Source of the DNA: Oryzias latipes
Taxonomy: Eukaryota; Chordata; Actinopteri; Beloniformes; Adrianichthyidae
Length of the DNA stretch: 64,000 bases
Assembly (NCBI RefSeq): GCF_002234675.1
Contig: NC_019876.2
Coordinates: 12,521,245 to 12,585,244 of the forward strand
Direction: 5' to 3'
Shown: piece by piece, positions 7,521 to 60,770 of the stretch
Layout of the letters: each line of letters starts with the position of its first letter
Position numbering within the stretch: position 1 is the first letter of the stretch
Program-made: the position numbers and the translations under genes
The notes under the pieces: model-generated
The model's input: the letters and a program-made list of their open reading frames with translations, nothing else
The model's database searches: none
What the model was told of the DNA's origin: nothing

Positions 7521-7633
<113 letters not shown>

Positions 7634-10016: not shown

Positions 10017-10392
10017 CCATTGATTTAAAAAACAGACTAATTACAAAAATCCAGCAGAATTATATGATTCACTCAAGCAAAATACATTTCAGGTCAGGCT
10101 AGGATTTCCAACTTTTTCCCCCAGAAAATTTAAATTATTGTGTTATTATTGCCCATAATAATCCTGCTATCAAACTCATTTTATGCTACACAAAGGCTGA
10201 AATCTCTATAACCTTTTCTTGCAAAAGTAGACACTTAAAGCATGTTAGTTTTCAAATTGTTCTCATGAACATAATGGTTAATTTTCATCCAAATTGAACT
10301 ATGCATATTGCCATTCATCCTTATAATTCTGTTAACGATATTCATATTTTACTTTATTTCAAAATAATACAAAAAATGACATTAATTAAACA

Positions 10393-10426
10393 CTAGAAGG
10401 AGCTGCATTTCCAGAAGAAAATGCAG
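10393..10426 (-). mobile_element. Helitron-like 3' terminus 1
   Basis: CTAG at 10,393-10,396 and a stem-loop at 10,403-10,426 (8-bp arms CTGCATTT/AAATGCAG, 8-nt loop). This is the leftmost terminus and marks the left border of the array, preceded by ordinary AT-rich flank. Confidence 0.7.
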
Positions 10427-11599
10427 GGTTGAATGCTATAATGCTGAATGAAAGCTGAATTTGCTGAAGAAATGGCTGAACAGAGCTGAAAGACCTCAAC
10501 ATTTTAAAAGTAGAATGGTTAAAGTAGGTAAAAAACTGTAAAAGAAGTTAAAAAAAAGATTTCCTATGTATTTTAATGAAGCAAAAATCCTGGGAAATCC
10601 CGGAATATCTTTAAAAGTTAAAAGATTTAAAAAAAAATCATAGCAGGAAAAAGTTGAAAAAGTTGAACATTGTAATAGTAGAATGGCTAAAATAGGTCAA
10701 AAAATGTAGAAGGAGTTAAGCATGAAAGCTTAAGTTGATACAAAAATGACTGGACTGTTGAAAATTTGAAGATGTTGCTAAAATGGTTAAAAGTGCTAGC
10801 ATTGGAATCAGCATCATCAACTGACTCAAAAAAACACTTTGTTTGAGAGTATCATATTGTTAAAAGCTACATGTTCTAAGTTGACAGAAAATCCACTTTT
10901 TCCAAAATGGCGGCTTTCCTATTGATTTTATCTCCATAGCAACCATTTTATGTTTCGGTCGCCTGGGGATGACGAACAAATCGACGTCAGTTTCAGACAA
11001 ATCGGAAAAAGTAAACCTTTGGACGTCCTTAGCAAAAAAGTTTGTTTGCTAACCACGCCCACATTCCTTATATGTCCAGATCCAGTGAATTTCAATATGC
11101 TCAGTTCCAGCCATGGATGAAGTTTATTGCAACATTTGCTTCAGATTTTGTCAAAAAATGCCCACCAAACAGTAGGTTGTGTTGCCATCCCATAATAATT
11201 TCAAAACGTATGTTGAAGTCCAAAGCCTTGTGAGCATTTCAATGTTTGAACAGTGCCTCTAGCTGAAAGCTTGTTAAAGTTATAATGCTTGAAAGCAACA
11301 AAGGTTTTCAAGGATTCTCCATGTATTTAAATGAAGCAAAAATCTTGGAAAATCCTGGAAAATCTTGGAATATCTTGAAAAGTTCAAAGATTTGAAAGAC
11401 TAAAAGTCGTAGCTGAAAGGAATAAGCTGAAAGGGTTGAACATTGTAATAGTAGAAGGATTAAAATACGTGAAAGTTTGAAGAAGTTTAAAATTGCCTCA
11501 CATTTTGGCACAAAATGGCCGCCAAACTGTAGGTGGTGTTGCCATCCCATAATAATTTTGAACTTTATGTTGAAGTCCAAAACCTTGTGAACATTTCAA

Positions 11600-12420
11600 T
11601 ATTTGAACGGTGTCTCTAGCCAAAAGAATGTTAAAGTTACAATTGTTTAAAGAAGCAAAGGTGTGGCCAATGGAGCAAAAAGATTGGAAAATCTGGGAAT
11701 ATCCGGGAATATCTGGAAAAGTTCAAAGATTTGAAGGACCAAAAGTCATAGCTGAAAGGAATAAGATGAAAGGGTTGAACATTGTAATAGTAGAATGGTA
11801 AAAATAGGTGAAAGTTTGAAGAAGTTTAAAATTGCCTCACATTTTGGCACAAAATGGCCGCCAAACTGTAGGTGGTGTTGCCATCCCATAATAATTTTTA
11901 AACCTTATGTTGAAGTCCAAAACCTTGTGAACATTTCAATATTTGAACGGTGTCTCTAGCCAAAAGAATGTTAAAGTTACAATTGTTTAAAGAAGCAAAG
12001 GTGTGGCCAATGGAGCAAAAAGATTGGAAAATCTGGGAATTTCCGGGAATATCTGGAAAAGTTCAAGGATTTGAAGGACCAAAAGTCATAGCTGAAAGGA
12101 ATAAGCTGAAAAGGTTGAACATTGTAATAGTAGAATGGTAAAAATAGGTGAAAGTTTGAAGAAGTTTAAAATTGCCTCACATTTTGGCACAAAATGGCCG
12201 CCAATTTGTAGGTGGTGTTGCCATCCCATAATAATTTTTAAACCTTATGTTGAAGTCCAAAACCTTGTGAACATTTCAATATTTGAACGGTGTCTCTAGC
12301 CAAAAGAATGTTAAAGTTACAATTGTTTAAAGAAGCAAAGGTGTGGCCAATGGAGCAAAAAGATTGGAAAATCCGGGAATATCCGGGAATATCTGGAAAA
12401 GTTCAAGGATTTGATGGACA
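11600..12420. repeat. 340-bp monomer block A (3 copies)
   Basis: Three head-to-tail copies start near 11,610, 11,950 and 12,290, spaced 340 bp. Each holds CTCTAGCCAAAAGAATG, GTGTGGCCAATGGAGC, GGGAATATCTGG, CAAAATGGCCGCC and CCATCCCATAATAATTT. Identity between copies is very high. The 63-codon frame inside each (GTG start) is a product of the repeat, not a gene. Confidence 0.9.
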
Positions 12421-12761
12421 AAATGTCATAGCTAGAATAAAATGAAAGACCTGAACATTTTCATAGTCAAACGGTTAAAATAGGTGAAAAATTGTAGAAG
12501 GAGTTTAACTGTGAACTTCTGAACGAAAAATTCTCCATGTATTTCAATGGAGCAAAAATTCCCGGAAAACCTGGAATATCTTAAAAAGTAAAAGGATATG
12601 AAAAACCAAAAGTCATAGCACAAATAAGCAGAAAGAGCTGAACATTTTAAAAGTTGAATGGTTATAATCGGTTAAAAATTGTAGAAGGAGTTAAGCGGCG
12701 AAAAACGGCGGAAGATAGGTGTAAAGAATAATAATAAATAAAGAGAAACAGGAAAACAAAG

Positions 12762-12787
12762 GGTTGAATGCTTTACAGCATTCAACC
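12762..12787. repeat. perfect 10-bp palindrome at unit junction
   Basis: GGTTGAATGC and GCATTCAACC flank the 6-nt loop TTTACA. Identical or near-identical palindromes lie at 16,620-16,645, 23,834-23,859, 26,120-26,145, 26,175-26,200, 27,462-27,487 (loop TTTATA) and 27,513-27,538. Four of the seven directly abut an AACTAGAAG terminus. Confidence 0.9.
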
Positions 12788-12789
12788 AA

Positions 12790-12823
12790 CTAGAAGGAGC
12801 TGCATTTCCAGAAGAAAATGCAG
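12790..12823 (-). mobile_element. Helitron-like 3' terminus 2
   Basis: CTAG at 12,790-12,793 followed by the CTGCATTT/AAATGCAG stem-loop. It sits two bases after the palindrome that closes the preceding unit. Confidence 0.7.
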
Positions 12824-13232
12824 GGTTGAATGCTGTATTGCTGAAAGAAAGCTTAATGTGTAAAATAAATGGCTGAACTGAGCTGAAAGAGATCAACATT
12901 TTAAAAGTAAAATGGTTAAAAAAAGTAAAAACCTGTAAAAGAAGTTAAGCACAAGAATTCCCTATGCATTTTAATGGAGCAAAAATCCTGGAAAATCTTG
13001 GAATATCTTGAAAAGTTCAAAGATTTGAAAGACTAAAAGTCGTAGCTGAAAGGAATAAGCTGAAAGGGTTGAACATTGTAATAGTAGAAGGATTAAAATA
13101 CGTGAAAGTTTGAAGAAGTTTAAAATTGCCTCACATTTTGGCACAAAATGGCCGCCAAACTGTAGGTGGTGTTGCCATCCCATAATAATTTTGAACTTTA
13201 TGTTGAAGTCCAAAACCTTGTGAACATTTCAA

Positions 13233-14055
13233 TATTTGAACGGTGTCTCTAGCCAAAAGAATGTTAAAGTTACAATTGTTTAAAGAAGCAAAGGTGTGGC
13301 CAATGGAGCAAAAAGATTGGAAAATCTGGGAATATCCGGGAATATCTGGAAAAGTTCAAAGATTTGAAGGACCAAAAGTCATAGCTGAAAGGAATAAGAT
13401 GAAAGGGTTGAACATTGTAATAGTAGAATGGTAAAAATAGGTGAAAGTTTGAAGAAGTTTAAAATTGCCTCACATTTTGGCACAAAATGGCCGCCAAACT
13501 GTAGGTGGTGTTGCCATCCCATAATAATTTTTAAACCTTATGTTGAAGTCCAAAACCTTGTGAACATTTCAATATTTGAACGGTGTCTCTAGCCAAAAGA
13601 ATGTTAAAGTTACAATTGTTTAAAGAAGCAAAGGTGTGGCCAATGGAGCAAAAAGATTGGAAAATCTGGGAATATCCGGGAATATCTGGAAAAGTTCAAG
13701 GATTTGAAGGACCAAAAGTCATAGCTGAAAGGAATAAGCTGAAAAGGTTGAACATTGTAATAGTAGAATGGTAAAAATAGGTGAAAGTTTGAAGAAGTTT
13801 AAAATTGCCTCACATTTTGGCACAAAATGGCCGCCAAACTGTAGGTGGTGTTGCCATCCCATAATAATTTTGAACTTTATGTTGAAGTCCAAAACCTTGT
13901 GAACATTTCAATATTTGAACGGTGTCTCTAGCCAAAAGAATGTTAAAGTTACAATTGTTTAAAGAAGCAAAGGTGTGGCCAATGGAGCAAAACCATTGGA
14001 AAATCTGGGAATATCCGGGAATATCTGGAAAAGTTCAAAGATTTGAAGGACCAAA
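13233..14055. repeat. 340-bp monomer block B (3 copies)
   Basis: Copies begin near 13,243, 13,583 and 13,923. The first two are close matches of block A at an offset of 1,633 bp, showing that whole units were duplicated together with their internal tandem repeats. Confidence 0.9.
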
Positions 14056-14373
14056 ATGTCATAGCTAGAATAAGATGAAAGAGCTGAACATTTTCATAGT
14101 CGAACGGTTAAAATAGGTGAAAAATTGTAGAAGGAGTTTAACTGTGAACTTCTGAACGAAAAATTCTCCATGTATTTCAATGGAGCAAAAATTCCCGGAA
14201 AACCTGGAATATCTTAAAAAGTAAAAGGATTTGAAAAACCAAAAGTCATAGCAGAAATAAGATGAAAGAGATGAACATTTTAATAGTAGAATGGTTAAAA
14301 TAGGTTAAAAATTGTAGAAGTAGTTAAACGCCAAAAAACGGCGGAAGATACTATAAGATACGATAATAATAAA

Positions 14374-14407
14374 CTAGAAGGAGCTGCATTTCCAGAAGAA
14401 AATGCAG
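14374..14407 (-). mobile_element. Helitron-like 3' terminus 3
   Basis: CTAG at 14,374-14,377 with the standard stem-loop. The preceding unit lacks the 10-bp palindrome and ends in an AATAATAATAAA tail. Confidence 0.7.
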
Positions 14408-15459
14408 GGTTGAATGCTGTACTGCTGAATGAAAGCTGAATTAGCTGAAGAAATGGCTGAACTGTACTGGAAGAACCATGAAAAGTTAAAAGTGCAAAAG
14501 TCCTAGCAGGAATAAGCTGAAAAAGTTGAACATTGTAATAGTAGAATGGCTGAAATAGGTCAAAATTTGTAGGACTTAAGCATGAAAGCTGAAATTGTTG
14601 AAAAAAGGGCTGAATTGTTGAAAATTTGAAGATGTTGCTAAAATGGCTAAAAGTACTAGCATTGGAATCAGCATCATCAACTGACTCCAAAAAACACGTT
14701 GTTTGAGAGTATTATATTGGTAAAAGCTACATGTTCTAAGTTGATAGAAAATCCACTCTTTTCAAAATGGCGGCTTTTCTATTGATTTTATCTCCATAGC
14801 AACCATTTTATGTTTGGGTCGCCTGGAGATGAGGAACAAATCAACGTCGGTTTCAGATGAATCGGAAAAAGTAAACTTTTGGACGTCCTTAGCAACGAGC
14901 TTTGTTTGCTAACCACGCCCACATTCCTTATATGTCCAGATCCAGTGAATTTCAATATGTTCAGTTCCAGCCATGGTTGAAGTTTATTGCAACATTTGCT
15001 TCAGATATGGTCAGAATATGCCCACCAAACAGTAAGTTGTGTTGCCATCCCATAATAATTTCAAAACGTATGTTGAAGTCCAAAGCCTTGTGGGCATTTC
15101 AATGTTTGAACGGTGCCTCTAGCTGAAAGCTTGTTAAAGTTATGATGCTTGAAAGCAACAAAGGTTTACAAGGATTCTCCATGTATTTATATGAAGCAAA
15201 AATCTTGGAAAATCCTGGAAAATCTTGGAATATCTTGAAAAGTTCAAAGATTTGAAAGACTAAAAGTCGTAGCTGAAAGGAATAAGCTGAAAGGGTTGAA
15301 CATTGTAATAGTAGAAGGATTAAAATACGTGAAAGTTTGAAGAAGTTTAAAATTGCCTCACATTTTGGCACAAAATGGCCGCCAAACTGTAGGTGGTGTT
15401 GCCATCCCATAATAATTTTGAACTTTATGTTGAAGTCCAAAACCTTGTGAACATTTCAA

Positions 15460-16270
15460 TATTTGAACGGTGTCTCTAGCCAAAAGAATGTTAAAGTTAC
15501 AATTGTTTAAAGAAGCAAAGGTGTGGCCAATGGAGCAAAAACATTGGAAAATCTGGGAATATCCGGGAATATCTGGAAAAGTTCAAAGATTTGAAGGACC
15601 AAAGTCATAGCTGAAAGGAATAAGCTGAAAGGGTTGAACATTGTAATAGTAGAATGGTAAAAATAGGTGAAAGTTTGAAGAAGTTTAAAATTGCCTCACA
15701 TTTTGGCACAAAATGGCCGCCAAACTGTAGGTGGTGTTGCCATCCCATAATAATTTTGAACCTTATGTTGAAGTCCAAAACCTTGTGAACATTTCAATAT
15801 TTGAACGGTGTCTCTAGCCAAAAGAATGTTAAAGTTACAATTGTTTAAAGAAGCAAAGGTGTGGCCAATGGAGCAAAAAGATTGGAAAATCTGGGAATTT
15901 CCGGGAATATCTGGAAAAGTTCAAGGATTTGAAGGACCAAAAGTCATAGCTGAAAGGAATAAGCTGAAAAGGTTGAACATTGTAATAGTAGAATGGTAAA
16001 AATAGGTGAAAGTTTGAAGAAGTTTAAAATTGCCTCACATTTTGGCACAAAATGGCCGCCAATTTGTAGGTGGTGTTGCCATCCCATAATAATTTTTAAA
16101 CCTTATGTTGAAGTCCAAAACCTTGTGAACATTTCAATATTTGAACGGTGTCTCTAGCCAAAAGAATGTTAAAGTTACAATTGTTTAAAGAAGCAAAGGT
16201 GTGGCCAATGGAGCAAAAAGATTGGAAAATCCGGGAATATCCGGGAATATCTGGAAAAGTTCAAGGATTT
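15460..16270. repeat. 340-bp monomer block C (3 copies)
   Basis: Copies begin near 15,470, 15,808 and 16,148. The block and its flanks match block A and flanks at a constant offset of 3,858-3,860 bp, so a segment of about 3.4-3.8 kb was duplicated in tandem recently. Confidence 0.9.
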
Positions 16271-16647
16271 GATGGACAAAATGTCATAGCTAGAATAAAA
16301 TGAAAGACCTGAACATTTTCATAGTCAAACGGTTAAAATAGGTGAAAAATTGTAGAAGGAGTTTAACTGTGAACTTCTGAACGAAAAATTCTCCATGTAT
16401 TTCAATGGAGCAAAAATTCCCGGAAAACCTGGAATATCTTAAAAAGTAAAAGGATATGAAAAACCAAAAGTCATAGCACAAATAAGCAGAAAGAGCTGAA
16501 CATTTTAAAAGTTGAATGGTTATAATCGGTTAAAAATTGTAGAAGGAGTTAAGCGGCGAAAAACGGCGGAAGATAGGTGTAAAGAATAATAATAAATAAA
16601 GAGAAACAGGAAAACAAAGGGTTGAATGCTTTACAGCATTCAACCAA

Positions 16648-16681
16648 CTAGAAGGAGCTGCATTTCCAGAAGAAAATGCAG
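16648..16681 (-). mobile_element. Helitron-like 3' terminus 4
   Basis: CTAG at 16,648-16,651 with the standard stem-loop; it is preceded by the palindrome at 16,620-16,645. This is the duplicate of terminus 2 at +3,858 bp. Confidence 0.7.
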
Positions 16682-17090
16682 GGTTGAATGCTGTATTGCT
16701 GAAAGAAAGCTTAATGTGTAAAATAAATGGCTGAACTGAGCTGAAAGAGATCAACATTTTAAAAGTAAAATGGTTAAAAAAAGTAAAAACCTGTAAAAGA
16801 AGTTAAGCACAAGAATTCCCTATGCATTTTAATGGAGCAAAAATCCTGGAAAATCTTGGAATATCTTGAAAAGTTCAAAGATTTGAAAGACTAAAAGTCG
16901 TAGCTGAAAGGAATAAGCTGAAAGGGTTGAACATTGTAATAGTAGAAGGATTAAACTACGTGAAAGTTTGAAGAAGTTTAAAATTGCCTCACATTTTGGC
17001 ACAAAATGGCCGCCAAACTGTAGGTGGTGTTGCCATCCCATAATAATTTTGAACGTTATGTTGAAGTCCAAAACCTTGTGAACATTTCAA

Positions 17091-17900
17091 TATTTGAACG
17101 GTGTCTCTAGCCAAAAGAATGTTAAAGTTACAATTGTTTAAAGAAGCAAAGGTGTGGCCAATGGAGCAAAAAGATTGGAAAATCTGGGAATATCCGGGAA
17201 TATCTGGAAAAGTTCAAGGATTTGAAGGACCAAAAGTCATAGCTGAAAGGAATAAGCTGAAAGGGTTGAACATTGTAATAGTAGAATGGTAAAAATAGGT
17301 GAAAGTTTGAAGAAGTTTAAAATTGCCTCACATTTTGGCACAAAATGGCCGCCAAACTGTAGGTGGTGTAACCATCCCATAATAATTTTGAACCTTATGT
17401 TGAAGTCCAAAACCTTGTGAACATTTCAATATTTGAACGGTGTCTCTAGCCAAAAGAATGTTAAAGTTACAATTGTTTAAAGAAGCAAAGGTGTGGCCAA
17501 TGGAGCAAAAAGATTGGAAAATCTGGGAATTTCCGGGAATATCTGGAAAAGTTCAAGGATTTGAAGGACCAAAAGTCATAGCTGAAAGGAATAAGCTGAA
17601 AAGGTTGAACATTGTAATAGTAGAATGGTAAAAATAGGTGAAAGTTTGAAGAAGTTTAAAATTGCCTCACATTTTGGCACAAAATGGCCGCCAATTTGTA
17701 GGTGGTGTTGCCATCCCATAATAATTTTTAAACCTTATGTTGAAGTCCAAAACCTTGTGAACATTTCAATATTTGAACGGTGTCTCTAGCCAAAAGAATG
17801 TTAAAGTTACAATTGTTTAAAGAAGCAAAGGTGTGGCCAATGGAGCAAAAAGATTGGAAAATCCGGGAATATCCGGGAATATCTGGAAAAGTTCAAGGAT
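17091..17900. repeat. 340-bp monomer block D (3 copies)
   Basis: Copies begin near 17,101, 17,440 and 17,780. This is the +3,858-bp duplicate of block B. Confidence 0.9.
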
Positions 17901-18224
17901 TTGATGGACAAAATGTCATAGCTAGAATAAAATGAAAGACCTGAACATTTTCATAGTCAAACGGTTAAAATAGGTGAAAAATTGTAGAAGGAGTTTAACT
18001 GTGAACTTCTGAACGAAAAATTCTCCATGTATTTCAATGGAGCAAAAATTCCCGGAAAACCTGGAATATCTTAAAAAGTAAAAGGATATGAAAAACCAAA
18101 AGTCATAGCACAAATAAGCAGAAAGAGCTGAACATTTTAAAAGTTGAATGGTTACAATCGGTTAAAAATTGTAGAAGGAGTTAAGCGGCGAAAAACGGCG
18201 GAAGATAGGTGTAAAGAATAATAA

Positions 18225-18258
18225 CTAGAAGGAGCTGCATTTCCAGAAGAAAATGCAG
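18225..18258 (-). mobile_element. Helitron-like 3' terminus 5
   Basis: CTAG at 18,225-18,228 with the standard stem-loop. The unit beginning here (to about 20,078) lacks the 340-bp monomer and carries a different internal segment. Confidence 0.7.
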
Positions 18259-20078
18259 GGTTGAATGCTGTATTGCTGAATGAAAGCAGAAATATGATGA
18301 AAAAGCTGAACATTGTAAAAGTAGAATGTCTAAAATAGGTCAAACATTGTAGAAGGAGTTAAGCATGAAAGCTAAAAAATTGTTGAAAAAAAGGCTGAAA
18401 TGTCCTGGAAAATCCTGGAATATTTTGAAAAATTAAAGGACCAAAAGTCAAAGGTGAACATTGTAAAAGTAGAATGACCAAAACAGGTCAAAATTTGTAG
18501 ACGGAGTTAAGCATGAAAGCTGAAATTGTTGAAAAAATGGATGTACTGTTGAAAATTTGAAGATGATGCTAAATTGGCTAAAAGTGCTAGCATCAGCATC
18601 ATCAACTGACTCAAAAAACCACATTGTTTAAGAGTATCATATTGGTAAAAGCTACATGTTCTAAGTTGACAGAAAATCCACTTTTTTTCAAAATGGCGGC
18701 TTTTCTATTAATTTTATCTCCATAGCAACCATTTTACGTTTGGGTCGGCATGGGATGACGAACAAATCGACGTCAGTTTCAGACAAATCGGTAAAAGTAA
18801 ACCTTTGGACGTCCTTAGCAACGAAGTTTGTTGGCTAACCACGCCCACATTCCTTATATGTCCAGATCCAGTGAATTTCAATCTGTTCAGTTCCAGCCAT
18901 GGATTAAGTTTATTGCAATATTTGCTTCAGATTTTGTCATAAAAAGGCCACCAACAGTAGGTTGTGTCGACATCCCATAATGATTTCTAAACGTATTTAA
19001 TAGTCCAAAGCCTTGTGATCATTTTAATGTTTGAATGGTGTCTCTAGCTACAAGTATGTTGAAGTTATATTTGTTTAAAGAAACAAAGGCTTCAGATTTG
19101 AAAAACACAAAATGGCTACCAAACAGACTCCATCCCATAATGACTTCAAACCTTGATGTTATAATCCAAAGCACCAATCATTTGACAATAAAAATGGAGT
19201 CACGTCATGCAGCAAGAGATATTCTGGCAAATGCAGAGCCTCAAGATCAATTCTCTCAACTATGCATGTGCCATTAGTCTTTGCACACACATCCATGTAT
19301 AATGGAGAGTTATAATGATCATCAGCTAGCTAGCTAGTTGAATGATACAGCAATATATTTTCATTGAACCACTAACTTGTGTGGTGCAAAAACATGATAG
19401 TCACTTCTCGTAACAGCCACCTAACTCATGGTTTGGGAATCAACACTTTCCCATGAGCCTTCACTTTTGAAAAGTCGAAAGATTTGAAGGACCAAAAGTG
19501 GTGGTAAAAAAAATTTTGGAGGTAAAAAAATTGTAAAATGAGTTAAACAAGGCCTGAAATTATTGAAAAAATGGCTGAATTAATGAAAATTTGAAGATTT
19601 GAAGGAAAGGAATGAGCTGAACTGTTTCATACAATGGTTAAAGTAAGTAAAAACCTGTAAAAGAAGTTAAGCACAAGGATTCTCTATGTATTTTAATGGA
19701 GCAAAAAATCCTGGAAAATCCTAGAATATCTTAAAAAGTTTAATGATTTGAATGACCAAAAGTAATAACTGTAATAAGTTGAAAGAGCTCAACATTTTAA
19801 AAGTGAAATGGTAAAAAAAATTTAAGTGTCCGAACCTGGTGTCGAACCCGGAACCTCATGTACCATAACTTCCCAATGCATTTTAATAGGGCAAAAATTC
19901 CCGGAAAAACTGGAATATCTTAAAAAGTAAAAGGATTTGAAAAACCAAAAGTCATAGCAATAATAAGCTGAAAGAGCTGAACATTTTAAAAGTTGAATGG
20001 TTAAAATCGGTTAAAAATTGTAGAAGTAGTTAAGTGTCAAAAAACGGCGGAAGATAGTATAAATAATAATAATAATAA

Positions 20079-20112
20079 CTAGAAGGAGCTGCATTTCCAG
20101 AAGAAAATGCAG
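20079..20112 (-). mobile_element. Helitron-like 3' terminus 6
   Basis: CTAG at 20,079-20,082 with the standard stem-loop, after an (AAT)n tail. Confidence 0.7.
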
Positions 20113-21923
20113 GGTTGAATGCTGTATTGCTGAATGAAAGCAGAAATATGATGAAAAAGCTGAACATTGTAAAAGTAGAATGTCTAAAATAGGTCAAACA
20201 TTGTAGAAGGAGTTAAGCATGAAAGCTGAAATTGTTCAAAAAAAATGGCTGAACTGCCTGCAAAATCCTGAAATATTTTGAAAAGTTAAAGGACCACAAG
20301 TCAAAGGTGAACATTGTAAAAGTAGAATGACCAAAACAGGTCAAAATTTGTAGACGGAGTTAAGCATGAAAGCTGAAATTGTTGAAAAAATGGATGTACT
20401 GTTGAAAATTTGAAGATGATGCTAAAATGGCTGAAAGTGCTAGCATCAGCATCATCAACTGACTCAAAAAACCAAATTGTTTAAGAGTATCATATTGGTA
20501 AAAGCCACATGTTCTAAGTTGACAGAAAATCCACTTTTTTCAAAATGGCGGCTTTTCTATTAATTTTATCTCCATAGCAACCATTTTACGTTTGGGTCGG
20601 CATGGGATGACGAACAAATCGACGTCAGTTTCAGACAAATCGGAAAAAGTAAACCTTTGGACGTCCTTAGCAACGAAGTTTGTTGGCTAACCACGCCCAC
20701 ATTCCTTATATGTCCAGATCCAGTGAATTTCAATATGTTCAGTTCCAGCCATGGATGAAGTTAATTGCAATATTTGCTTCAGATTTTGTCATAAAAAGGC
20801 CACCAACAGTAGGTTGTGTCGACATCCCATAATGATTTCTAAACGTATTTTATAGTCCAAAGCCTTGTGATCATTTTAGTGTTTGAACGGTGTCTCTAGC
20901 TACAAATATGTGGAAGTTATATTGGTTGAAAGAAACAGAGGTTTCAAATTTGAAAAACACAAAATGGCTGCCAAATAGTCTCCATCCCACAATGACGTCA
21001 AACCTAGATGTTGTACTCCAAAGCACTAATCATTTGACAGTAAAAGTGGAGCCACATCCTGCAGCAGGAGATATTCTGGCATATGCAGAGCTTCAAGATC
21101 AATTCTCTCAACTATGCATTTGCCATAACTTTTTGCAAACACATCCTTGTATAATGGAGAGATATATTGATCATCAGCTAGCTAGCTGAATGATACAGCA
21201 TTATATTTTCATTTAACCACTAACTTATGTGGTGCAAAAACATCATAGTCACTTCTCGTAACAGCCACCTAACTCATGGTTTGGGAATCAACACTTTCCC
21301 ATGAGCCTTCACTTTTGAAAAGTCGCAGGATTTGAAGGACCAAAAGTGGTGGTAAAAAAAAATTTTGGAGGTAAAAAATTGTAAAAGGAGTTAAACAAGG
21401 CCTGAAATTATTGAAAAAATGGCTGAATTAATGAAAATTTGAAGATTTGAAGGAAAGGAATGAGCTGAACTGTTTCATACAATGGTTAAAGTAAGTAAAA
21501 ACCTGTAAAAGAAGTTAAGCACAAGGATTCTCTATGTATTTTAATGGAGCCAAAAATCCTGGAAAATCCTGGAATATCTTAAAAAGTTCAATGATTTGAA
21601 TGACCAAAAGTAATAACTGTATTAAGTTGAAAGAGTTGAACATTTTAAAAGTAAAATGGTAAAAAATTTTGAAGCGTCCGAACCGGGTGTCGAACCGGGC
21701 GCCTCGTGCATCATAACTTCCCAATGCATTTTAATAGGGCAAAAATTCCCGGAAAAACTGGAATATCTTAAAAAGTAAAAGGATTAGAAGTACCAAAAGT
21801 CATAGCAATAATAAGCTGAAAAAGCTGAACATTTTAAAAGTTGAATGGTAAAAATCGGTTAAAAATTGTAGAAGTAGTTAAGTGTCAAAAAACGGCGGAA
21901 GATAGTATAAATAATAATAATAA

Positions 21924-21957
21924 CTAGAAGGAGCTGCATTTCCAGAAGAAAATGCAG
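21924..21957 (-). mobile_element. Helitron-like 3' terminus 7
   Basis: CTAG at 21,924-21,927 with the standard stem-loop, after an (AAT)n tail. Confidence 0.7.
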
Positions 21958-23011
21958 GGTTGAATGCTGTACTGCTGAATGAAAGCTGAATTAGCTGAAG
22001 AAATGGCTTAACTGTACTGGGAAAACCTTGAAAAGTTAAATGTGCAAAAGTCCTAGCAGGAATAAGATGAAAAAGTTGAACATTGTAATAGTAGAATGGC
22101 TGAAATAGGTCAAAGTTTGTAGAAGGAGTTAAGCATTAAAGCTGAAATTGTTGAAAAAATGGCTGAAGTGTTGAAAATTTGAAGAAGTTGCTAAAATGGC
22201 TAAAAGTACTAGCATTGGAATCAGCATCATCAACTGAATCCAAAAAACACATTGTTTGAGAGTATCATATTGGTAAAACCTACATGTTCTAAGTTGATAG
22301 AAAATCCATTTTTTTCAAAATGGCGGCTTTCTATTAATTTTATCTCCATAGCAACCATTTTACGTTTGGGTCGCCTGGAGATGAGGAACAAATCAACGTC
22401 GGTTTCAGATGAATCGGAAAAAGTAAACTTTTGGACGTCCTTAGCAACGAGCTTTGTTTGCTAACCACGCCCACATTCCTTATATGTCCAGATCCAGTGA
22501 ATTTCAATATGTTCAGTTCCAGCCATGGATGAAGTTTATTGCAACATTTGCTTCAGATTTTGTCAAAAAATGCCCACCAAACAGTAGGTTGTGTTGCCAT
22601 CCCATAATAATTTCAAAACGTATGTTGAAGTCCAAAGCCTTGTGAGCATTTCAATGTTTGAACGGTGCCTCTAGCTGAAAGCTTGTTAAAGTTATAATGC
22701 TTGAAAGCAACAAAGGTTTTCAAGGATTCTACATGTATTTAAATGAAGCAAAAATCTTGGAAAATCCTGGAAAATCTTGGAATATCTTGAAAAGTTCAAA
22801 GATTTGAAAGACTAAAAGTCGTAGCTGAAAGGAATAAGCTGAAAGGGTTGAACATTGTAATAGTAGAAGGATTAAGATACGTGAAAGTTTGAAGAAGTTT
22901 AAAATTGCCTCACATTTTGGCACAAAATGGCCGCCAAACTGTAGGTGGTGTTGCCATCCCATAATAATTTTGAACTTTATGTTGAAGTCCAAAACCTTGT
23001 GAACATTTCAA

Positions 23012-23500
23012 TATTTGAACGGTGTCTCTAGCCAAAAGAATGTTAAAGTTACAATTGTTTAAAGAAGCAAAGGTGTGGCCAATGGAGCAAAAACATTGGA
23101 AAATCTGGGAATATCCGGGAATATCTGGAAAAGTTCAAGGATTTGAAGGACCAAAAGTCATAGCTGAAAGGAATAAGCTGAAAGGGTTGAACATTGTAAT
23201 AGTAGAATGGTAAAAATAGGTGAAAGTTTGAAGAAGTTTAAAATTGCCTCACATTTTGGCACAAAATGGCCGCCAAACTGTAGGTGGTGTTGCCATCCCA
23301 TAATAATTTTGAACCTTATGTTGAAGTCCAAAACCTTGTGAACATTTCAATATTTGAACGGTGTCTCTAGCCAAAAGAATGTTAAAGTTACAATTGTTTA
23401 AAGAAGCAAAGGTGTGGCCAATGGAGCAAAAAGATTGGAAAATTCAGGAATATCCGGGAATATCTGGAAAAGTTCAGGGATTTGAAGGACCAAAATGTCA
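23012..23500. repeat. 340-bp monomer block E (2 copies)
   Basis: Copies start near 23,022 and 23,361. The second diverges at its end into the CAAAATGTCATAGC junction that also closes the other blocks. Confidence 0.88.
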
Positions 23501-23871
23501 TAGCTTGAATAAGATGAAAGAGCTGAACACTTTCATAGTCGAACGGTTAAAATAGGTGAAAAATTGTAGAAGGAGTTTAACTGTGAACTTCTGAACGAAA
23601 AATTCTCCATGTATTTCAATGGAGCAAAAATTCCCGGAAAACCTGGAATATCTTAAAAAGTAAAAGGATTTGAAAAACCAAAAGTCATAGCAGAAATAAG
23701 ATGAAAGAGATGAACATTTTAAAAGTAGAATGGTTAAAATAGGTTAAAAATTGTAGAAGTAGTTAAGTGTCAAAAAACGGCGGAAGATAGTGTAAATAAT
23801 AATAAAGAAATAAAGAGAAACAGGAAAACAAAGGGTTGAATGCTTTACAGCATTCAACCAACTAGAAGAAG

Positions 23872-23905
23872 CTGCATTTCCAGAAGAAAATGCAGGGTTG
23901 AATGC
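23872..23905 (-). mobile_element. Helitron-like 3' terminus 8
   Basis: CTAG at 23,872-23,875 with the standard stem-loop; one base differs after CTAGAAG. It follows the palindrome at 23,834-23,859. Confidence 0.7.
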
Positions 23906-24958
23906 TGTACTGCTGAATGAAAGCTGAATTAGCTGAAGAAATGGCTTAACTGTTCTGGAAAAACCTTGAAAAGTTAAACATGCAAAAGTCCTAGCAGGAA
24001 TAAGATGAAAAAGTTGAACATTGTAATAGTAGAATGGTTAAAATAGGTCAAAGTTTGTAGAAGGAGTTAAGCATTAAATCTGAAATTGTTAAAAAATGGC
24101 TGAACTGTTGAAAATGTAAAGATGTTGCTAATATGGCTAAAAGTGCTAGCATTGGAATCAGCATTATCAACTGACTCCAAAAAACACATTGTTTGAGAGT
24201 ATCATATTGGTAAAAGCTACATGTTCTAAGTTGATAGAAAATCCACTTTTTTCAAAATGGCGGCTTTCTATTAATTTTATCTCCATAGCAACCATTTTAC
24301 GTTTGGGTCGCCTGGGGATGACGAACAAATCGACGTCAGTTTCAGACAAATCGGAAAAAGTAAACCTTTGGACGTCCTTAGCAACGAAGTTTGTTTGCTA
24401 ACCACGCCCACATTCCTTATATGTCCAGATCCAGTGAATTTCAATATGTTCCGTTCCAGCCATGGATGAAGTTTATTGCAATATTTGCTTCAGATTTTGT
24501 CAAAAAATGCCCACCAAACAGTAGGTTGTGTTGCCATCCCATAATAATTTCAAAACGTATGTTGAACTCCAAAGCCTTGTGAGCATTTCAATGTTTGAAC
24601 GGTGCCTCTAGCTGAAAGCATGTTAAAGTTATAATGCTTGAAAGCAACAAAGGTTTTCAAGGATTCTCCATGTATTTAAATGAAGCAAAAATCTTGGAAA
24701 ATCCTGGAAAATCTTGGAATATCTTGGAATATCTTGAAAAGTTCAAAGATTTGAAAGACTAAAAGTCGTAGCTGAAAGGAATAAGATGAAAGGGTTGAAC
24801 ATTGTAATAGTAGAATGGTAAAAATAGGTGAAAGTTTGAAGAAGTTTAAAATTGCCTCACATTTTGGCACAAAATGGCCGCCAAACTGTAGGTGGTGTTG
24901 CCATCCCATAACAATTTTGAGCCTTAAGTTGAAGTCCAAAACCTTGTGAACATTTCAA

Positions 24959-25790
24959 TATTTGAACGGTGTCTCTAGCCAAAAGAATGTTAAAGTTACA
25001 ATTGTTTAAAGAAGCAAAGGTGTGGCCAATGGAGCAAAAAGATTGGAAAATCTGGGAATATCCGGGAATATCTGGAAAAGTTCAAGGATTTGAAGGACCA
25101 AAAGTCATAGCTGAAAGGAATAAGATGAAAGGGTTGAACATTGTAATAGTAGAATGGTAAAAATAGGTGAAAGTTTGAAGAAGTTTAAAATTGCCTCACA
25201 TTTTGGCACAAAATGGCCGCCAAACTGTAGGTGGTGTTGCCATCCCATAATAATTTTGAACCTTATGTTAAAGTCCAAAACCTTGTGAACATTTCAATAT
25301 TTGAACGGTGTCTCTAGCCAAAAGAATGTTAAAGTTACAATTGTTTAAAGAAGCAAAGGTGTGGCCAATGGAGCAAAAACATTGGAAAATTCAGGAATAT
25401 CCGGGAATAAATGGAAAAGTTCAGGGATTTGAAGGACCAAAAGTCATAGCTGAAAGGAATAAGATGAAAGGGTTGAACATTGTAATAGTAGAATGGTAAA
25501 AATAGGTGAAAGTTTGAAGAAGTTTAAAATTGCCTCACATTTTGGCACAAAATGGCCGCCAAACTGTAGGTGGTGTTGCCATCCCATAATAATTTTGAAC
25601 CTTATGTTAAAGTCCAAAACCTTGTGAACATTTCAATATTTGAACGGTGTCTCTAGCCAAAAGAATGTTAAAGTTACAATTGTTTAAAGAAGCAAAGGTG
25701 TGGCCAATGGAGCAAAAACATTGGAAAATTCAGGAATATCCGGGAATAAATGGAAAAGTTCAGGGATTTGAAGAACCAAAATGTCATAGC
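24959..25790. repeat. 340-bp monomer block F (3 copies)
   Basis: Copies start near 24,969, 25,308 and 25,648. The last two share GGGAATAAATGG in place of GGGAATATCTGG, so they arose from each other locally rather than from blocks A-D. Confidence 0.9.
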
Positions 25791-26202
25791 TAGAATAAGA
25801 TGAAAGAGCTGAACATTTTCATAGTCGAACGGTTAAAATAGGTGAAAAATTGTAGAAGGAGTTTAACAGTGAACTTCTGCACGAAAAATTCTCCATGTAT
25901 TTCAATGGAGCAAAAATTCCCGGAAAACCTGGAATATCTTAAAAAGTAAAAGGATTTGAAAAACCAAAAGTCATAGCACAAATAAGCAGAAAGATCTGAA
26001 AATTTTAAAAGTTGAATGGTTACAATCGGTTAAAAATTGTAGAAGGAGTTAAGCGGCGAAAAACGGCGGAAGATAGGTGTAAGGAATAATAATAAATAAA
26101 GAGAAACAGGAAAACAAAGGGTTGAATGCTTTACAGCATTCAACCAATAAATAAAGAGAAACAGGAAAACAAAGGGTTGAATGCTTTACAGCATTCAACC
26201 AA

Positions 26203-26236
26203 CTAGAAGGAGCTGCATTTCCAGAAGAAAATGCAG
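26203..26236 (-). mobile_element. Helitron-like 3' terminus 9
   Basis: CTAG at 26,203-26,206 with the standard stem-loop. Two tandem copies of the roughly 55-bp palindrome unit precede it (26,120-26,145 and 26,175-26,200). Confidence 0.7.
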
Positions 26237-26645
26237 GGTTGAATGCTGTATTGCTGAAAGAAAGCTTAATGTGTAAAATAAATGGCTGAACTGAGCTGAA
26301 AGAGATCAACATTTTAAAAGTAAAATGGTTAAAAAAAGTAAAAACCTGTAAAAGAAGTTAAGCACAAGAATTCCCTATGCATTTTAATGGAGCAAAAATC
26401 CTGGAAAATCTTGGAATATCTTGAAAAGTTCAAAGATTTGAAAGACTAAAAGTCGTAGCTGAAAGGAATAAGCTGAAAGGGTTGAACATTGTAATAGTAG
26501 AAGGATTAAACTACGTGAAAGTTTGAAGAAGTTTAAAATTGCCTCACATTTTGGCACAAAATGGCCGCCAAACTGTAGGTGGTGTTGCCATCCCATAATA
26601 ATTTTGAACGTTATGTTGAAGTCCAAAACCTTGTGAACATTTCAA

Positions 26646-27125
26646 TATTTGAACGGTGTCTCTAGCCAAAAGAATGTTAAAGTTACAATTGTTTAAAGAA
26701 GCAAAGGTGTGGCCAATGGAGCAAAAAGATTGGAAAATCTGGGAATATCCGGGAATATCTGGAAAAGTTCAAGGATTTGAAGGACCAAAAGTCATAGCTG
26801 AAAGGAATAAGATGAAAGGGTTGAACATTGTAATAGTAGAATGGTAAAAATAGGTGAAAGTTTGAAGAAGTTTAAAATTGCCTCACATTTTGGCACAAAA
26901 TGGCCGCCAAACTGTAGGTGGTGTAACCATCCCATAATAATTTTGAACCTTATGTTGAAGTCCAAAACCTTGTGAACATTTCAATATTTGAACGGTGTCC
27001 CTAGCCAAAAGAATGTTAAAGTTACAATTGTTTAAAGAAGCAAAGGTGTGGCCAATGGAGCAAAAAGATTGGAAAATTCAGGAATATCCGGGAATAAATG
27101 GAAAAGTTCAGGGATTTGAAGGACC
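26646..27125. repeat. 340-bp monomer block G (2 copies)
   Basis: Copies start near 26,656 and 26,995. The surrounding sequence from about 26,200 to 26,900 closely matches 12,790-13,440. Confidence 0.88.
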
Positions 27126-27461
27126 AAAATGTCATAGCTGGAATAAGATGAAAGAGCTGCACATTTTCATAGTCGAACAGTTAAAATAGGTGAAAAATTG
27201 TAGAAGGAGTTTAGCTGTGAACTTCTGCACGAAAAATTCTCCATGTATTTCAATGGAGCAAAAATTCCCGGAAAACCTGGAATATCTTAAAAAGTAAAAG
27301 GATTTGAAAAACCAAAAGTCATAGCACAAATAAGCAGAAAGAGCTGAACATTTTAAAAGTTGAATGGTTAAAATCGGTTAAAAATTGTAGAACGAGTTAA
27401 GCGGCGAAAAACGGCGGAAGATAGGCGTAAAGAATAAATAAAGAGAAACAGGAAAACAAAG

Positions 27462-27538
27462 GGTTGAATGCTTTATAGCATTCAACCAATAAAGAGAAAC
27501 AGGAAAACAAAGGGTTGAATGCTTTACAGCATTCAACC
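27462..27538. repeat. right border of the array: two palindromes
   Basis: Two palindromes (27,462-27,487 and 27,513-27,538) in tandem end the array; AATTAAATGC, apparently flank, follows directly. On the minus strand this would be the 5' end of the outermost unit. Confidence 0.75.
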
Positions 27539-27540
27539 AA

Positions 27541-31750: not shown

Positions 31751-34700
31751 TCAGGCGGTATAGGGGAACTGCAGGAGCAAAGCCTGCCTGGGTCCTAAAG
31801 TGAGTTTGTCCAGACTGATGGAGGAGTCGGCCTCTTGGTTTTCATCCGTCGAAAGTTTCACCTTAGCCGTTTCTGGTAACTCGACTCCATCTGTAGAGAC
31901 AAGTTTTTTTATGTTACAACAATTAAAAAACAGATTTAAGAAAGTGCACAGAGGTTCTCCTTGCCTGTAGGCGGCAGCGGCAGTGACAGTTTGAGCGTTT
32001 CTGCTTTCTCCCCCCAGTTGACGATAGTGATGTATCGCTCGCTCTGATCCCAAAGCCGCAGAAAAGCGAGGCATGAGGGGGACGAGTACAGGGAGTAGTA
32101 GTCGCCATGGAGAAGCGAGCGCTCCTTTCCTCGCAGGTCGCTGAGGGACTTGAACCACTTCCTCACTTCAGAGTGCTCTGTTGCATTAGCCTGAACATGG
32201 AAAGTGTAAAACGTAAATAATGCGGCGGCGGGGAAAACAACACTCTGGAAGGCAGATGGTGTGAACACTCACCGATTCCGATTCCAAGTCCCAAAGCATT
32301 TTTGGTTTTTCTGAACCCTAAAAATATAAAAATATTTATACATTTCAGCTGTTGCTTTGTGTGTAATTCAACAAACATCTGGTCCAAAAGAGGACTCACA
32401 TTTCCTGCCTGAAGTCCGATGTCATCTCCATAGGTGAACACAGGCGTTCCGGGCATAGTGAACAGAAGTAGCTGATACAGACGAATCAGACCCGGAGCTT
32501 TAGCTTGTGTCGACAGATGAACGTTGCTCGAGGCGCCGAGACCCCATCCCACATTCCTCTGCTGAGGGTGGAGAATATCCATGGCCCTGATGCGCTCGGC
32601 GCCTAAATATCAGACAGACATTAGCGTTCGAAAACTGAAAGATAAGACTGTGAAAGCATGGCAGGTGGTGAGCACAAACAAACCCCATCTTACCTCCGCT
32701 GCTGCTGCTGAGCAGGTCTGACAGCACGAGATCGACCCCAGAGGCGTTGATGAGCTGAGAAACCTCTGAGGGAGAAGCTCCTTCAACCACACCTATCAGG
32801 CCCCTGCAGGAAAGAAGCAGGTCAGGGGTTGTCACAGCAAGATGACTGCAGATTCCTCACCCTGATCTTACAGGCAGAGGAAAGTCTTTGATGTTTTTAA
32901 AGACCTACTCTGATCATCTCATGAGCCATTTTAAAAGCATTCCCAGTAGTTTTAATTAGGATTACAACATTACCCCTTCTGCCTGTCTGAGTTTTTCCAC
33001 GCTCTCCCACTAGTTTACAGGCCCTAACATTAGCCGTGCAGCAAAAATGGTGAGAAATTTTGGAGCTATCCAGCCGTACAGCTCTGATCCAGATGTCAGC
33101 TCAGACGAGGAAACGAAGACGCACATGGATCTAGTAGTATACAAGTGGATGCATCAGAATGGAGCAGAGCAGTGAGCTTTTCCAAACAGCATATTCTCTC
33201 TTTTTTTTCTTCATAAGAATTTGAATAAAGAAATAGGCAGAATTGCCGTTTTAAGATTTTTCTTTATATGTCCTCAATCATCCAAAAAGCGCCAATAACA
33301 CAATTTTCATCAGATCATTAAGGAAAAAGATCCCGTCAACTGACACGTTCCTAAAAACTGCCTCACTTTGCTAGCATTTCTTCTCTTTCAAACGCCTGTT
33401 GAAAATGTTTCTGCTTAAATGAAACAGGGGGGGAAACTCACCTGCTCTTGGTGTCCTCTGTTCGGTTGCCCTGGACAGCAGCACGCAGTTTCGGCCAGTC
33501 CGTGAGGTTGGACGCACGAGAGAGGTCGCGAAGCTTGATGGCATCCACTCCCAGATTCAGCCAGTATTCTGCCGCAGACTGGAAGAGACGACAAGCATCT
33601 CAATGAGCCACAACTCTAAAACTTTCACGCCTGCTGAGTGCTCAAAGCCCGTTCTGAACTGGGTCCCACCTTGACTTTCTCCACGATCTCATCGTCATTT
33701 TGAAACCAGGGAGCAGATCCTTTGTAGTTTGGAGTCAGGTCAAGCACCACAGACATGCCTAGTAGTATCCAGACATAATTTAGTTATGCATTACTTCTTC
33801 ATAGAAACAGCAGAACTGGGATTAAAGTTTGCTCGACCTACCCTTTTTGTGGGCTTTTGCCAACACTGCTTCCAATTGCTTTAGAGACCCAAAGATTGGA
33901 CTGATCTTATCAAGTTCCAGTGTAGCCGGCTCGTCTTCCTGGACACTGTGTAAAGGACCAAGAACGAGTCCTTTCACCTTCAGCTGGGTCATGCCGTCCA
34001 ACTTCTCCTCTAGACCTAGCAAAGACAGGGACGTAAGGAAGGAAATGCTGAGTCTGTGTGAGTTTCACAGCTTTTGTGTTCACAGAAGCAGAGTCTGAGG
34101 ATACACAGTGTACTTTGGGAACACATTCAGTGTCGGTGCACATGTACAATATAGTAAAGACCTTAAACACTTAATTAGTGGACATTTAAAAAAAACCCCG
34201 GAGCAGGAGCGTGTGAATGATTTCCTCCGCACCCTCTGCTGGCCATGTGAGGCCGGGGCACAAAAAGCTTGTTCATCCGAGAACAATATCCCAGGTCACA
34301 TGTGGTTTTTGGAATGCTTCCCAAAGCCTGCTGGAAACTAGAGTTCTCCCTGCTAAGTTACTGTACGGACAGAACATTCTGTCCTCCCTGACCGGCTGGA
34401 AACCAGCTGTGCTTTTTCCAGCACAACAACCCAACTGGACGTGAAAGACATACGTTAAAAAGCAACAAACTTTAAGTCTGTTTGGGAAAGCCTTGAAGAA
34501 ATAATTAGAAATCTAAACTAATGAAGCATTCTTGGACTAAAAAAAAAAGCAGAACATGGTTGCTCAACTGAACCTAAAATCTGGATAAGAGATATGAAAG
34601 AACTGACTTCAACAGATTCATGGCCTTTAGTCAGTCGCTGTGCTGCATAGTCAGCAGTCTAGTATCATGACTCGCTCAGTCGAGAAATGCAGACAACTGA

Positions 34701-35277
34701 GGAATTTGTCACAAGACTTTCCTGGCTGTTAAGCACACAGACAAAAATAAGACAGCATAAACGAGGTACAATCCGAGCTAAAAATACTTTACCTTCCATG
34801 CCACCAGAGAAGGCATCGAGGTCATCGATCTGGTACAGAGGGCCTTCATTCCACCAGTTCATCTCAGGAATAGGTTTGCAGCGAGGCGCCTGGACAATGA
34901 TCACGATGGCGCCGGCGAGCATGCCCACCCAGCCCAGCCAGAACAGGACAAGCAGTACCCAGCGTGTTCGCACCCATCTGGAAGGAGGTGAAAAAATGTC
35001 AGTAATCAATAAAAAACTAAAATAAAGCAAAGACAGACAGGGGAGCTCAGCATTTGTTATAGGAGGGATGAAACTCCTACCCTGGGGTGCCAGCAACTCT
35101 CAGCAGCTCCTCTTTGGACAGGCCGGTGAATGTGACGTCATCCTCAGGGACCTTCAGCTTGACGCTTCCATTCTTCTCGTTGCCTGCAGCCTGACCGTCG
35201 CCTGTCATGGGCTGCTTCTCCGGGTCCACTTCATTCAGCTTCACTTCCTCCATGTCAATTTCTGTGTCTTTGTTCAT
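31751..35277 (-). CDS. slc3a2: 4F2 cell-surface antigen heavy chain (CD98hc), complete
   Basis: Type II membrane glycoprotein that pairs with SLC7 light chains by a disulfide and brings these amino-acid exchangers to the plasma membrane. Ten coding exons join in frame: 35277-35081, 34977-34793, 34015-33842, 33758-33670, 33578-33442, 32803-32694, 32602-32400, 32317-32273, 32190-31965, 31890-31751 (1,506 nt, 501 residues; human isoforms are 529-630). A cytosolic N-terminus (1-70) precedes one membrane helix (about 72-94) and the extracellular stalk Cys99 in VQAPRC, the light-chain partner. The rest is the catalytically inactive GH13-like domain, with LKVKGLVLGP, LDLTPNY, MPGTPVFTYGD, GKERSLLHGD and the family C-terminus FPYTA. 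N-glycosylation sequons occur at NRT, NLT, NAS and NAT. The last intron has a GC donor (31,964-31,963); all others are GT-AG. Identification is firm; small exon-edge errors are possible. Confidence 0.96.
32896..33318 (+). mobile_element. 'KWMHQNG' miniature element in slc3a2 intron
   Basis: Starts TAAAGACCTACTCTGATC and ends near TTTCATCAGATC, inside the intron between 33,442 and 32,803. On the plus strand it reads a 43-codon frame from an ATG at about 33,050 that contains MDLVVYKWMHQNG, then a stop. It is opposite in orientation to the 7.9-kb copy and shares its peptide. Confidence 0.6.
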
Positions 35278-39001: not shown

Positions 39002-39073
39002 AGCAGAGTGGCGCAGCGGAAGCGTGCTGGGCCCATAACCCAGAGGTCGATGGATCGAAACCATCCTCTGCTA
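39002..39073 (+). tRNA. initiator tRNA-Met (CAT)
   Basis: A 72-nt cloverleaf begins AGCAGAGTGGCGCAGCGG and ends CATCCTCTGCTA, with an acceptor stem AGCAGAG/CTCTGCT. The anticodon CAT sits in GGGCCCATAACCC: three G:C pairs (GGG/CCC) in the anticodon stem are the initiator hallmark. The T arm has GATCGAAACC rather than the TTCGA of elongator tRNAs, also typical of eukaryotic tRNA-iMet. No intron. Internal box A is at about 39,008-39,019 and box B in the T arm. T4 (39,077-39,080) and T5 (39,083-39,087) runs just downstream are RNA polymerase III terminators. The cytosolic tRNA starts translation. It appears fully intact and its CCA is not encoded. Confidence 0.98.
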
Positions 39074-39076
39074 AGC

Positions 39077-48817: not shown

Positions 48818-49060
48818 ACACTGAACAAAAATGTAACACTTTTAATTTTGCTCCAATTTGTCATGAGATGAACTCAAAGATCTGAAACAATTTCTACCAA
48901 ATAACCGTATCTCTCAGATAATGGATCTGTCTAAATATCTGTGCTGGTGAGAACTTCTCCTTTGCTGAGATCCATTTCACCTCACAGGTATGCCATATCA
49001 AGATGCTGATTAGACAAATTATTGCACAGGTGTGCCTTAGACTGGCCACAATGAAACGAG
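48818..49060 (+). mobile_element. non-autonomous DNA transposon, copy 1 of inverted pair
   Basis: Begins ACACTGAACAAAAATGTAAC and contains TCATGAGATGAACTCAAAGA and CATATCAAGATGCTGATTAG. A diverged copy in inverse orientation lies at 51,074-51,300. This element type, starting CTGAACAAAAAT, is very common in fish; I do not assign a superfamily. Confidence 0.6.

Positions 49061-58706: not shown

Positions 58707-58812
<106 letters not shown>

Positions 58813-60158: not shown

Positions 60159-60770
<612 letters not shown>

Follow-up and report, generated by a model that had tools for sequence, protein, structure and literature searches.

How nine transposon units come to stand head to tail in one orientation is the question raised by a 64,000-nt stretch of the medaka (Oryzias latipes) genome (C18:12521245-12585244), referred to below as the window. 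On the basis of the present analysis, this array is very probably a stack of non-autonomous Helentron-like elements that arose by serial self-insertion in the same orientation and was later reshuffled by recombination. Serial self-insertion is the best reading because solo 5'-end stubs and the cut ends of element bodies pair in nested order over seven arrays. The ends themselves, the types of junction, the nested complementarity of stubs and cut ends and the absence of inverted self-insertions from the stretches read are matters of direct observation.

A search of the window with the 3'-end motif CTAGAAGGAGCTGCATTTCCAG gave nine matches, all on one strand (eight exact and one with a single mismatch), against none in 100 shuffles of the window. 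The first-pass annotation had described nine ends with a stem-loop and CTAG, all on the minus strand and 1.6-2.4 kb apart, and this was confirmed: successive 3' ends are separated by 2397, 1584, 2274, 1577, 1854, 1845, 1938 and 2341 bp (positions in Table 1). It had also recognized correctly the ends of a rolling-circle transposon, the head-to-tail order and the nesting of units. The extent that it gave, 10391..27540, is right at 27540, a 5' terminus forming the outer edge of the array, but starts 2 bp early, the true start being 10393. No more copies of the element ends were found elsewhere in the window, the immediate flanks are unlike the units, and the array is free of N. That annotation had not mentioned the palindrome at the 5' end, the lack of a 5' end in four units or the two solo 5'-end stubs.

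The array has seven 5' ends against nine 3' ends. At four of the eight internal junctions, CTAG meets a full 5' end (TTGG), which at 26203 is that of stub 1; at the other four it meets a body cut in an AAT-rich pad, with the hairpin gone, so that U2, U4, U5 and U6 have no 5' hairpin. The base following the 3' end is T in all nine cases. Four of the seven 5' ends come after CTAG, and the remaining three are preceded by A.

The relation between cut bodies and stubs was analyzed in the window array and in parts of six further arrays, with 200 kb fetched around six clusters; some of these arrays run beyond the fetched stretch. Each array was parsed from the 3' to the 5' side, a cut end being treated as a bracket opened and a stub as a bracket closed, and a stub was considered to fit when the cut pad and the stub pad together gave a pad seen intact in the set, the length of the AAT run being normalised. 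The parse yielded 19 stubs against 32 openings, of which 30 were cut bodies and 2 were themselves cut stubs. The order was four openings and two stubs in the window; four openings, one stub, three openings and five stubs in C7; three openings, one stub, five openings and four stubs in C20; six openings, one stub, two openings and one stub in C9; one opening, one stub, two openings and one stub in C11; and one opening and one stub in each of C16a and C3. All 19 stubs completed a still-open end in nested order, 15 of them the innermost and 4 after one or two had been skipped. With stub labels shuffled, 19 matches were reached in none of 5000 trials (mean 13.5, largest 18), and with opening labels shuffled, in 1 of 5000 (mean 12.6); as many as 15 matches to the innermost end occurred in 5 and 4 of 5000 trials, respectively. 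Shuffling the order within arrays gave 19 fits in 0 of 5000 trials, and left all seven arrays balanced, as observed, in 36 of 5000. When the arrays were parsed in reverse, 4 of the 19 stubs fitted. On exact letters, without normalisation of the AAT run, 17 of 19 fitted, a figure reached by 11 of 5000 shuffles, and a stricter parse in which cut stubs were not counted as openings left 17 of 19 stubs with an exact partner, 12 of them at once.

Individual arrays can be read in the same manner. The C7 array contains six stubs of three pad types, and their sequence is the one that six of the seven openings in C7 demand. In nests of a single step, excision of the insert (617 bp in C20; 2399 and 1890 bp in C11) restores a pad found intact elsewhere. 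The commonest cut site of one body type was represented by 11 cases, in which the inserted 3' type was B in five (96-100%), D in four (99-100%; two of these lie in a repeated block on C9) and C in one (94%), the eleventh being nearest to A at just 84%. Thus, to judge from the B, D and C inserts, at least three kinds of element entered at this one site. In the 264 kb read, 19 stub junctions were found versus no inverted self-insertion, and 91 of the 92 3' ends in the stretches of the seven arrays agreed in strand, the exception lying outside the C20 array. In the window, stub 1 had at first been paired with U4; the last-in-first-out parse gives U6 instead, so U4 and U5 are without stubs.

The assembly containing the window (734,051,031 bases in 25 contigs) was searched for further copies. 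With the first 308 bp of U1 as the query, 48 matches were obtained from 40 scored of 2381 candidates, and 11 were top-scoring, the window included. The 30 best-matching loci (L001-L030), which are no random sample, contained 45 3' ends, one of them counted twice because L016 and L030 overlap. Thirty-eight were classed automatically as adjoining another copy; of the other seven, five were variant copy ends by eye, and two (the outer end of the window array and L014) adjoined unrelated flank. In the whole genome, the 34-nt 3' end with at most one mismatch occurred 1246 times (679 and 567; none in a backward control); exact truncated junctions numbered 286 (154 and 132) and exact direct junctions (CTAG-TTGG) 284 (162 and 122), the controls again giving 0. 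Among the first 100 of the 1246 places, all on C1 and C2, 15 were single and 85 fell into nine clusters at a gap limit of 25 kb, of which the two largest contained 35 and 26 copies; neighbours within clusters had the same orientation in 75 pairs and opposite orientation in 1. The earlier view that the array is unusual therefore does not hold in its own genome.

The mechanism favored here starts from the T-rich pad (CTCTTTATTTATTATTATT and variants, transposon strand) that each copy carries about 50 nt inside its 5' end and that would supply landing sites between A and T. A newcomer (5'-TTGGTTGAATGCT ... CTAG-3') would enter this pad, or land precisely where an existing 5' end begins, taking the orientation of the host copy and causing no target duplication. 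Insertion within the pad would split the host copy into a body without hairpin and a hairpin stub of 51-59 bp, the latter coming to lie on the newcomer's outer 5' side. Since each newcomer would bring a fresh pad, the array could go on growing, and the accumulating stubs would be nested. Units would later undergo exchange or conversion with one another, which would mix 3' and 5' types and would probably delete some stubs. We infer that the enzyme would come from an autonomous Rep/helicase partner, that a strand preference would fix the orientation, that missing stubs would have been lost and that direct CTAG-TTGG junctions would also result from insertion. The empty site of the window array would be expected as GCATTTAA^TGTTTAATT on the minus strand. 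With modest confidence, we also favor a more general view, in which the pad is a self-renewing, strand-specific landing site, stacking makes the arrays grow inward and the nested stubs preserve the order of the insertions, a route from transposon to satellite-like DNA distinct from rolling-circle concatemers.

It should be noted that several points weigh against serial self-insertion and against the parse that led to it. The six further arrays were picked among the matches to the U1 query, partly for showing a junction of the U2-U3 type, and the parse criteria were developed on the same seven arrays. The pad types among the 19 stubs were few and simple (AATAAA in 10, AATAAATAAA in 6), and chance matches are therefore frequent. 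Thirteen of the 32 openings lacked a stub, two of them (U4 and U5) in the window array, and the missing stubs are assumed to have been lost or to lie where arrays run past the fetched stretch. Seventeen held-out short loci contained four stubs, of which just that in L022 had an open body within 3.3 kb; under the fixed criteria it did not fit, the AAT run of the joined pad being shorter than those of intact pads. Genome-wide, 676 of the 1246 3' ends matched neither exact junction pattern, the 284 direct junctions are equally compatible with concatemers, and a variant junction, TGTAACA-CTAG (21 cases in five arrays), is not accounted for. Finally, because the A-T target is symmetric, the single orientation needs a strand preference that is unproved.

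Arrays of this kind might also be laid down as rolling-circle concatemers, when replication runs past the 3' terminator and several units are deposited in one event. Tandem Helitron arrays in bat and silkworm have been ascribed to a bypassed terminator (PMC4067079), and plant arrays to rolling-circle amplification (PMC12628747), and the direct CTAG-TTGG junctions are what a concatemer would yield. However, cut bodies, solo 5' stubs and nested pairing are all unpredicted by such an origin. Moreover, divergence between neighbouring units reaches 33% in the 180 bp at the 3' end, so a single template copied in a single event cannot have been their source. The plant centromeric arrays (Xiong et al. 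2016, as cited in PMC12628747) resemble that of the window in being tandem truncated Helitrons, but in many of them several 5' ends go with a single 3' end, whereas in the window array 3' ends are in excess and the lost 5' ends are partly recovered as stubs. The cut junctions speak for insertion and the direct junctions are compatible with both processes, and we consider a concatemer origin unlikely. Composite elements with doubled 5' ends that moved as units, as proposed for the FoHelis of Fusarium, appear very improbable. In Fusarium, some copies are described as having more than one 5' terminus but a single 3' terminus, the duplicated 5' sequence being typically shorter than 200 bp, and doubled 5' ends may come from self-insertion followed by transposition (PMC5148889); in medaka, the U2-U3-type junction recurs on six contigs. 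Yet the subfamilies inserted at that junction vary between loci, the pile of six hairpins in C7 fits, in order, bodies cut in the C7 array, and composites would themselves start from self-insertion.

Recombination has clearly left its mark, and the question is whether it could be the sole cause, one or two insertions being multiplied by unequal crossing-over and the stubs being local tandem duplications of 51-55 bp. A tract of 1197 bp is identical between U1-U2 and U3-U4, crossing the junction in both pairs. The compared region has 110 mismatches in 3850 columns, and a run as long as 1197 was obtained in 0 of 10000 random placements (largest 474). Its edges lie inside units, and nowhere else in the fetched arrays are the 600 bp around the U1-U2 junction matched at more than 93.3%, so the tract is a local duplication or conversion; the idea that U1-U2 had moved as a composite was dropped on the same figure. 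At the 3' end, 52 diagnostic columns separate type A (U2, U4 and U9) from type B (U3, U7 and U8), and at the 5' end, 8 columns separate type alpha (U1, U3, U4, U8 and U9) from type beta (U2 and U7); all four combinations occur, which points to exchange within units, in the array or before insertion. From the tract and the four combinations it follows that recombination has acted. As the only process, however, it fails on the pad cuts between A and T, the varied subfamilies at one site and the nested complementarity, and we regard it as highly improbable in that role. An assembly artefact is the least probable explanation of all. The C9 stretch does contain 1000 N, and a block in it that extends into flanking sequence is repeated, but the window array has no N, its units are diverged and its immediate flanks unlike them, and the pattern recurs in six other stretches. 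Within this stretch (L035-L040, C9:31725001-31785000) the block is repeated about 21 kb apart, through either a segmental duplication or an assembly error.

An intact unit begins, on the minus strand, with TT and then GGTTGAATGCT-GTAA-AGCATTCAACC, an 11-bp palindrome, and continues with a T-rich stretch with ATT repeats, the body, the first repeat once more but inverted, the stem-loop, CTCCTT and CTAG. The folding energies as DNA were -7.1 kcal/mol (z -3.5) for the 3' stem-loop and -11.8 kcal/mol (z -7.2) for the 5' palindrome, none of 200 shuffles being as stable in either case. The subterminal inverted repeats (subTIRs), GGTTGAATGCT at the 5' end and AGCATTCAACC ahead of the 3' hairpin, are identical over 11 bp, as expected for HINEs (at least 11 identical bp), and identity reaches 14 bp between the common 5' end and eight of the nine 3' ends. 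The 5' subTIR lies 2 nt from the 5' end, the 3' subTIR about 35-48 nt from the 3' end, and the palindrome ends 10 nt from it; this agrees with the spacing of HINEs (5' subTIR about 2-4 nt in and, measured from the 3' end, the other subTIR at about 38-60 bp and the palindrome at about 8-35 bp; PMC4067079), with the 3' subTIR slightly nearer than the published range. Internal tandem repeats and a microsatellite are present as well, as 339-bp monomers in seven of nine units and an AAT run in the 5' pad. Insertion sites read A[TTGG...CTAG]T without target duplication, and one T could belong to the element or to the target. At the outer 5' edge of the arrays in the window, C9, C7 and C20, the flank next to the terminus reads TTTA or TTTAA in 4 of 4, and this could possibly represent a longer target preference.

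Canonical Helitrons (Helitron1) have a 5' TC, a 3' hairpin with CTRR and insertion between A and T without duplication (PMC5148889, PMC4067079). The 3' hairpin, CTAG and insertion site of the medaka element fit this description, but its 5' end is TTGG instead of TC and subTIRs are present. Compared at the ends only, it also resembles Helitron2 in its asymmetric terminal inverted repeats and palindromes at both ends, a group that further has a Rep/Hel protein without endonuclease (PMC5148889). No transposase domain (Rep, helicase or endonuclease) was found in 30 of the 32 listed window open reading frames of at least 110 aa (E up to 0.01), the sole domain match among these 30 being an SLC3A2 exon. 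Judged by these sequence features, the element is Helentron/HINE-like and not a canonical Helitron, and shows no coding capacity; the label Helitron-like in the first-pass annotation was right about rolling-circle ends but, given the palindromic subTIRs, not about the class. Pattern scans of viral contigs (three patterns) and of a genome contig collection (one pattern) gave no match, as expected for a eukaryote, and Rfam at gathering thresholds detected only a tRNA in the window. A separate unit type, with TGTTACA in place of the 5' hairpin on the transposon strand, is found at the variant junction, where GGAAAACAAATGTAACA is followed directly by CTAG (21 cases in five arrays, L031-L049, on C16, C9, C7, C11 and C20).

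Full 339-bp monomers (matches of at least 320 nt) numbered 3, 3, 3, 3, 0, 0, 2, 3 and 2 in U1 to U9, 19 in total, and occurred in runs of two or three. U5 and U6 carry only separate, diverged pieces of the monomer, which suggests that it arose within the element through the joining of two modules. Satellite-like internal repeats are typical of HINEs (PMC7492417), and the monomers sit inside transposon units, not in the long one-monomer arrays without transposon ends that mark a classical satellite. The first-pass annotation had placed a 340-bp satellite monomer in the units, which is true of seven of the nine, and had suggested a satellite being born, which suits the internal 339-bp repeat, while the array as a whole is better explained by repeated self-insertion, given the nested pairing in seven arrays.

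Compared with known systems, the element shares with HINE/DINE-1 (non-autonomous Helentrons; Thomas et al. 2014, PMC4067079) the lack of coding sequence and target duplication, the internal tandem repeats and microsatellite, and palindromic subTIRs placed 2 nt from the 5' end and ahead of the 3' stem-loop. HINEs, however, favor TT sites with variable T runs, whereas the array element has a 3' CTAG, inserts between A and T and forms long arrays by self-insertion. The proto-Helentron-Pi of Phytophthora infestans (PMC4067079) agrees with it in 5' TT, 3' CTAG, A/T insertion and lack of target duplication, but is about 14 kb long, coding and Helitron-like in structure, whereas the array element has palindromic subTIRs of the Helentron type in addition and is without apparent coding capacity. 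FoHeli/Helitron2 elements of Fusarium and relatives have asymmetric terminal inverted repeats, short duplicated 5' ends and, in FoHeli1 and 2, hairpins at both ends, and Fusarium Helitron2 shows signs of self-insertion (PMC5148889); unlike them, the medaka arrays contain many copies each and a multi-level nesting order that separates insertion from a rolling-circle origin at cut junctions. In zebrafish, local peaks of Helitron density may reflect tandem arrays (PMC9341512), and in Drosophila an insertion-site preference was reported to produce transposon dimers (cited in PMC12628747). Thus tandem Helitrons and HINE satellites are already known, and what is new is that the nesting record can be read; in the search listings and paper passages covered, the pairing of nested stubs was nowhere described. 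Because lost 5' ends are kept as stubs that pair with bodies in nested order, arrays become decodable event by event. Insertion can then be separated from rolling-circle origin by sequence alone. In the literature this choice has been left undecided at least once, for a three-copy tandem in Metarhizium that was ascribed either to insertion into a 5' end or to rolling circle (PMC5148889). A transposon with a preferred target inside itself is a concrete way to tens of kb of same-orientation repeats, and such build-up is a possible starting point for satellite DNA.

Table 1. Features of the array and their positions in the window
Feature	Position	Strand	Description
Whole array	10393..27540	-	nine head-to-tail Helentron-like units; transposon strand is minus
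3' ends (hairpin plus CTAG)	10393, 12790, 14374, 16648, 18225, 20079, 21924, 23862, 26203	-	
U1	10393..12789	-	3' type D; 5' end intact
U2	12790..14373	-	3' type A; body cut in 5' pad, no 5' hairpin
U3	14374..16647	-	3' type B; 5' end intact
U4	16648..18224	-	3' type A; body cut in 5' pad
U5	18225..20078	-	3' type C; body cut in 5' pad; 0 full 339-bp monomers
U6	20079..21923	-	3' type C; body cut in 5' pad; 0 full 339-bp monomers
U7	21924..23861	-	3' type B; 5' end intact
U8	23862..26147	-	3' type B; 5' end intact
Stub 1	26148..26202	-	solo 5' end, 55 bp; pad completes U6 (cut at 21924), the innermost open body
U9	26203..27489	-	3' type A; 5' end intact; CTAG adjoins stub 1
Stub 2	27490..27540	-	solo 5' end, 51 bp, outer 5' edge; pad completes U2 (cut at 14374), U4 and U5 skipped
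U1 5' terminus	12762..12789	-	TT and 11-bp palindromic subTIR
Further 5' ends (starts)	16647, 23861, 26147, 26202, 27489, 27540	-	
U1 3' terminus	10393..10437	-	inverted subTIR copy, stem-loop, CTCCTT, CTAG; equivalents at eight other unit starts
Identical tract, U1-U2 and U3-U4	11901..13097		1197 bp, spans U1-U2 junction; both edges inside units
339-bp monomers of U1	11349..12366	+	3 full copies
Similar monomer runs	12982-13992, 15209-16224, 16840-17856, 22761-23437, 24708-25723, 26395-27071		

Some other features of the window were also observed. A second element, at about 49486-50600, has internal modules in common with the array, at 79-90% in pieces some 60-93 bp long, and a 100/194-bp tandem repeat at 49618-50018; by eye, it is flanked by two copies of a short sequence, near 49000 and near 51135, that are inverted relative to each other. 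The exon of SLC3A2 (4F2hc) at 34665-35099 on the minus strand was identified by Pfam SLC3A2_N (4e-23) and PDB matches, and the tRNA, a tRNA-Met (CAT) at 39001-39074 on the plus strand, by an ARAGORN prediction together with the Rfam match. Microsatellites are present at 7524-7630 (AT), 58708-58812 (TATC) and 60183-60330 (TA).

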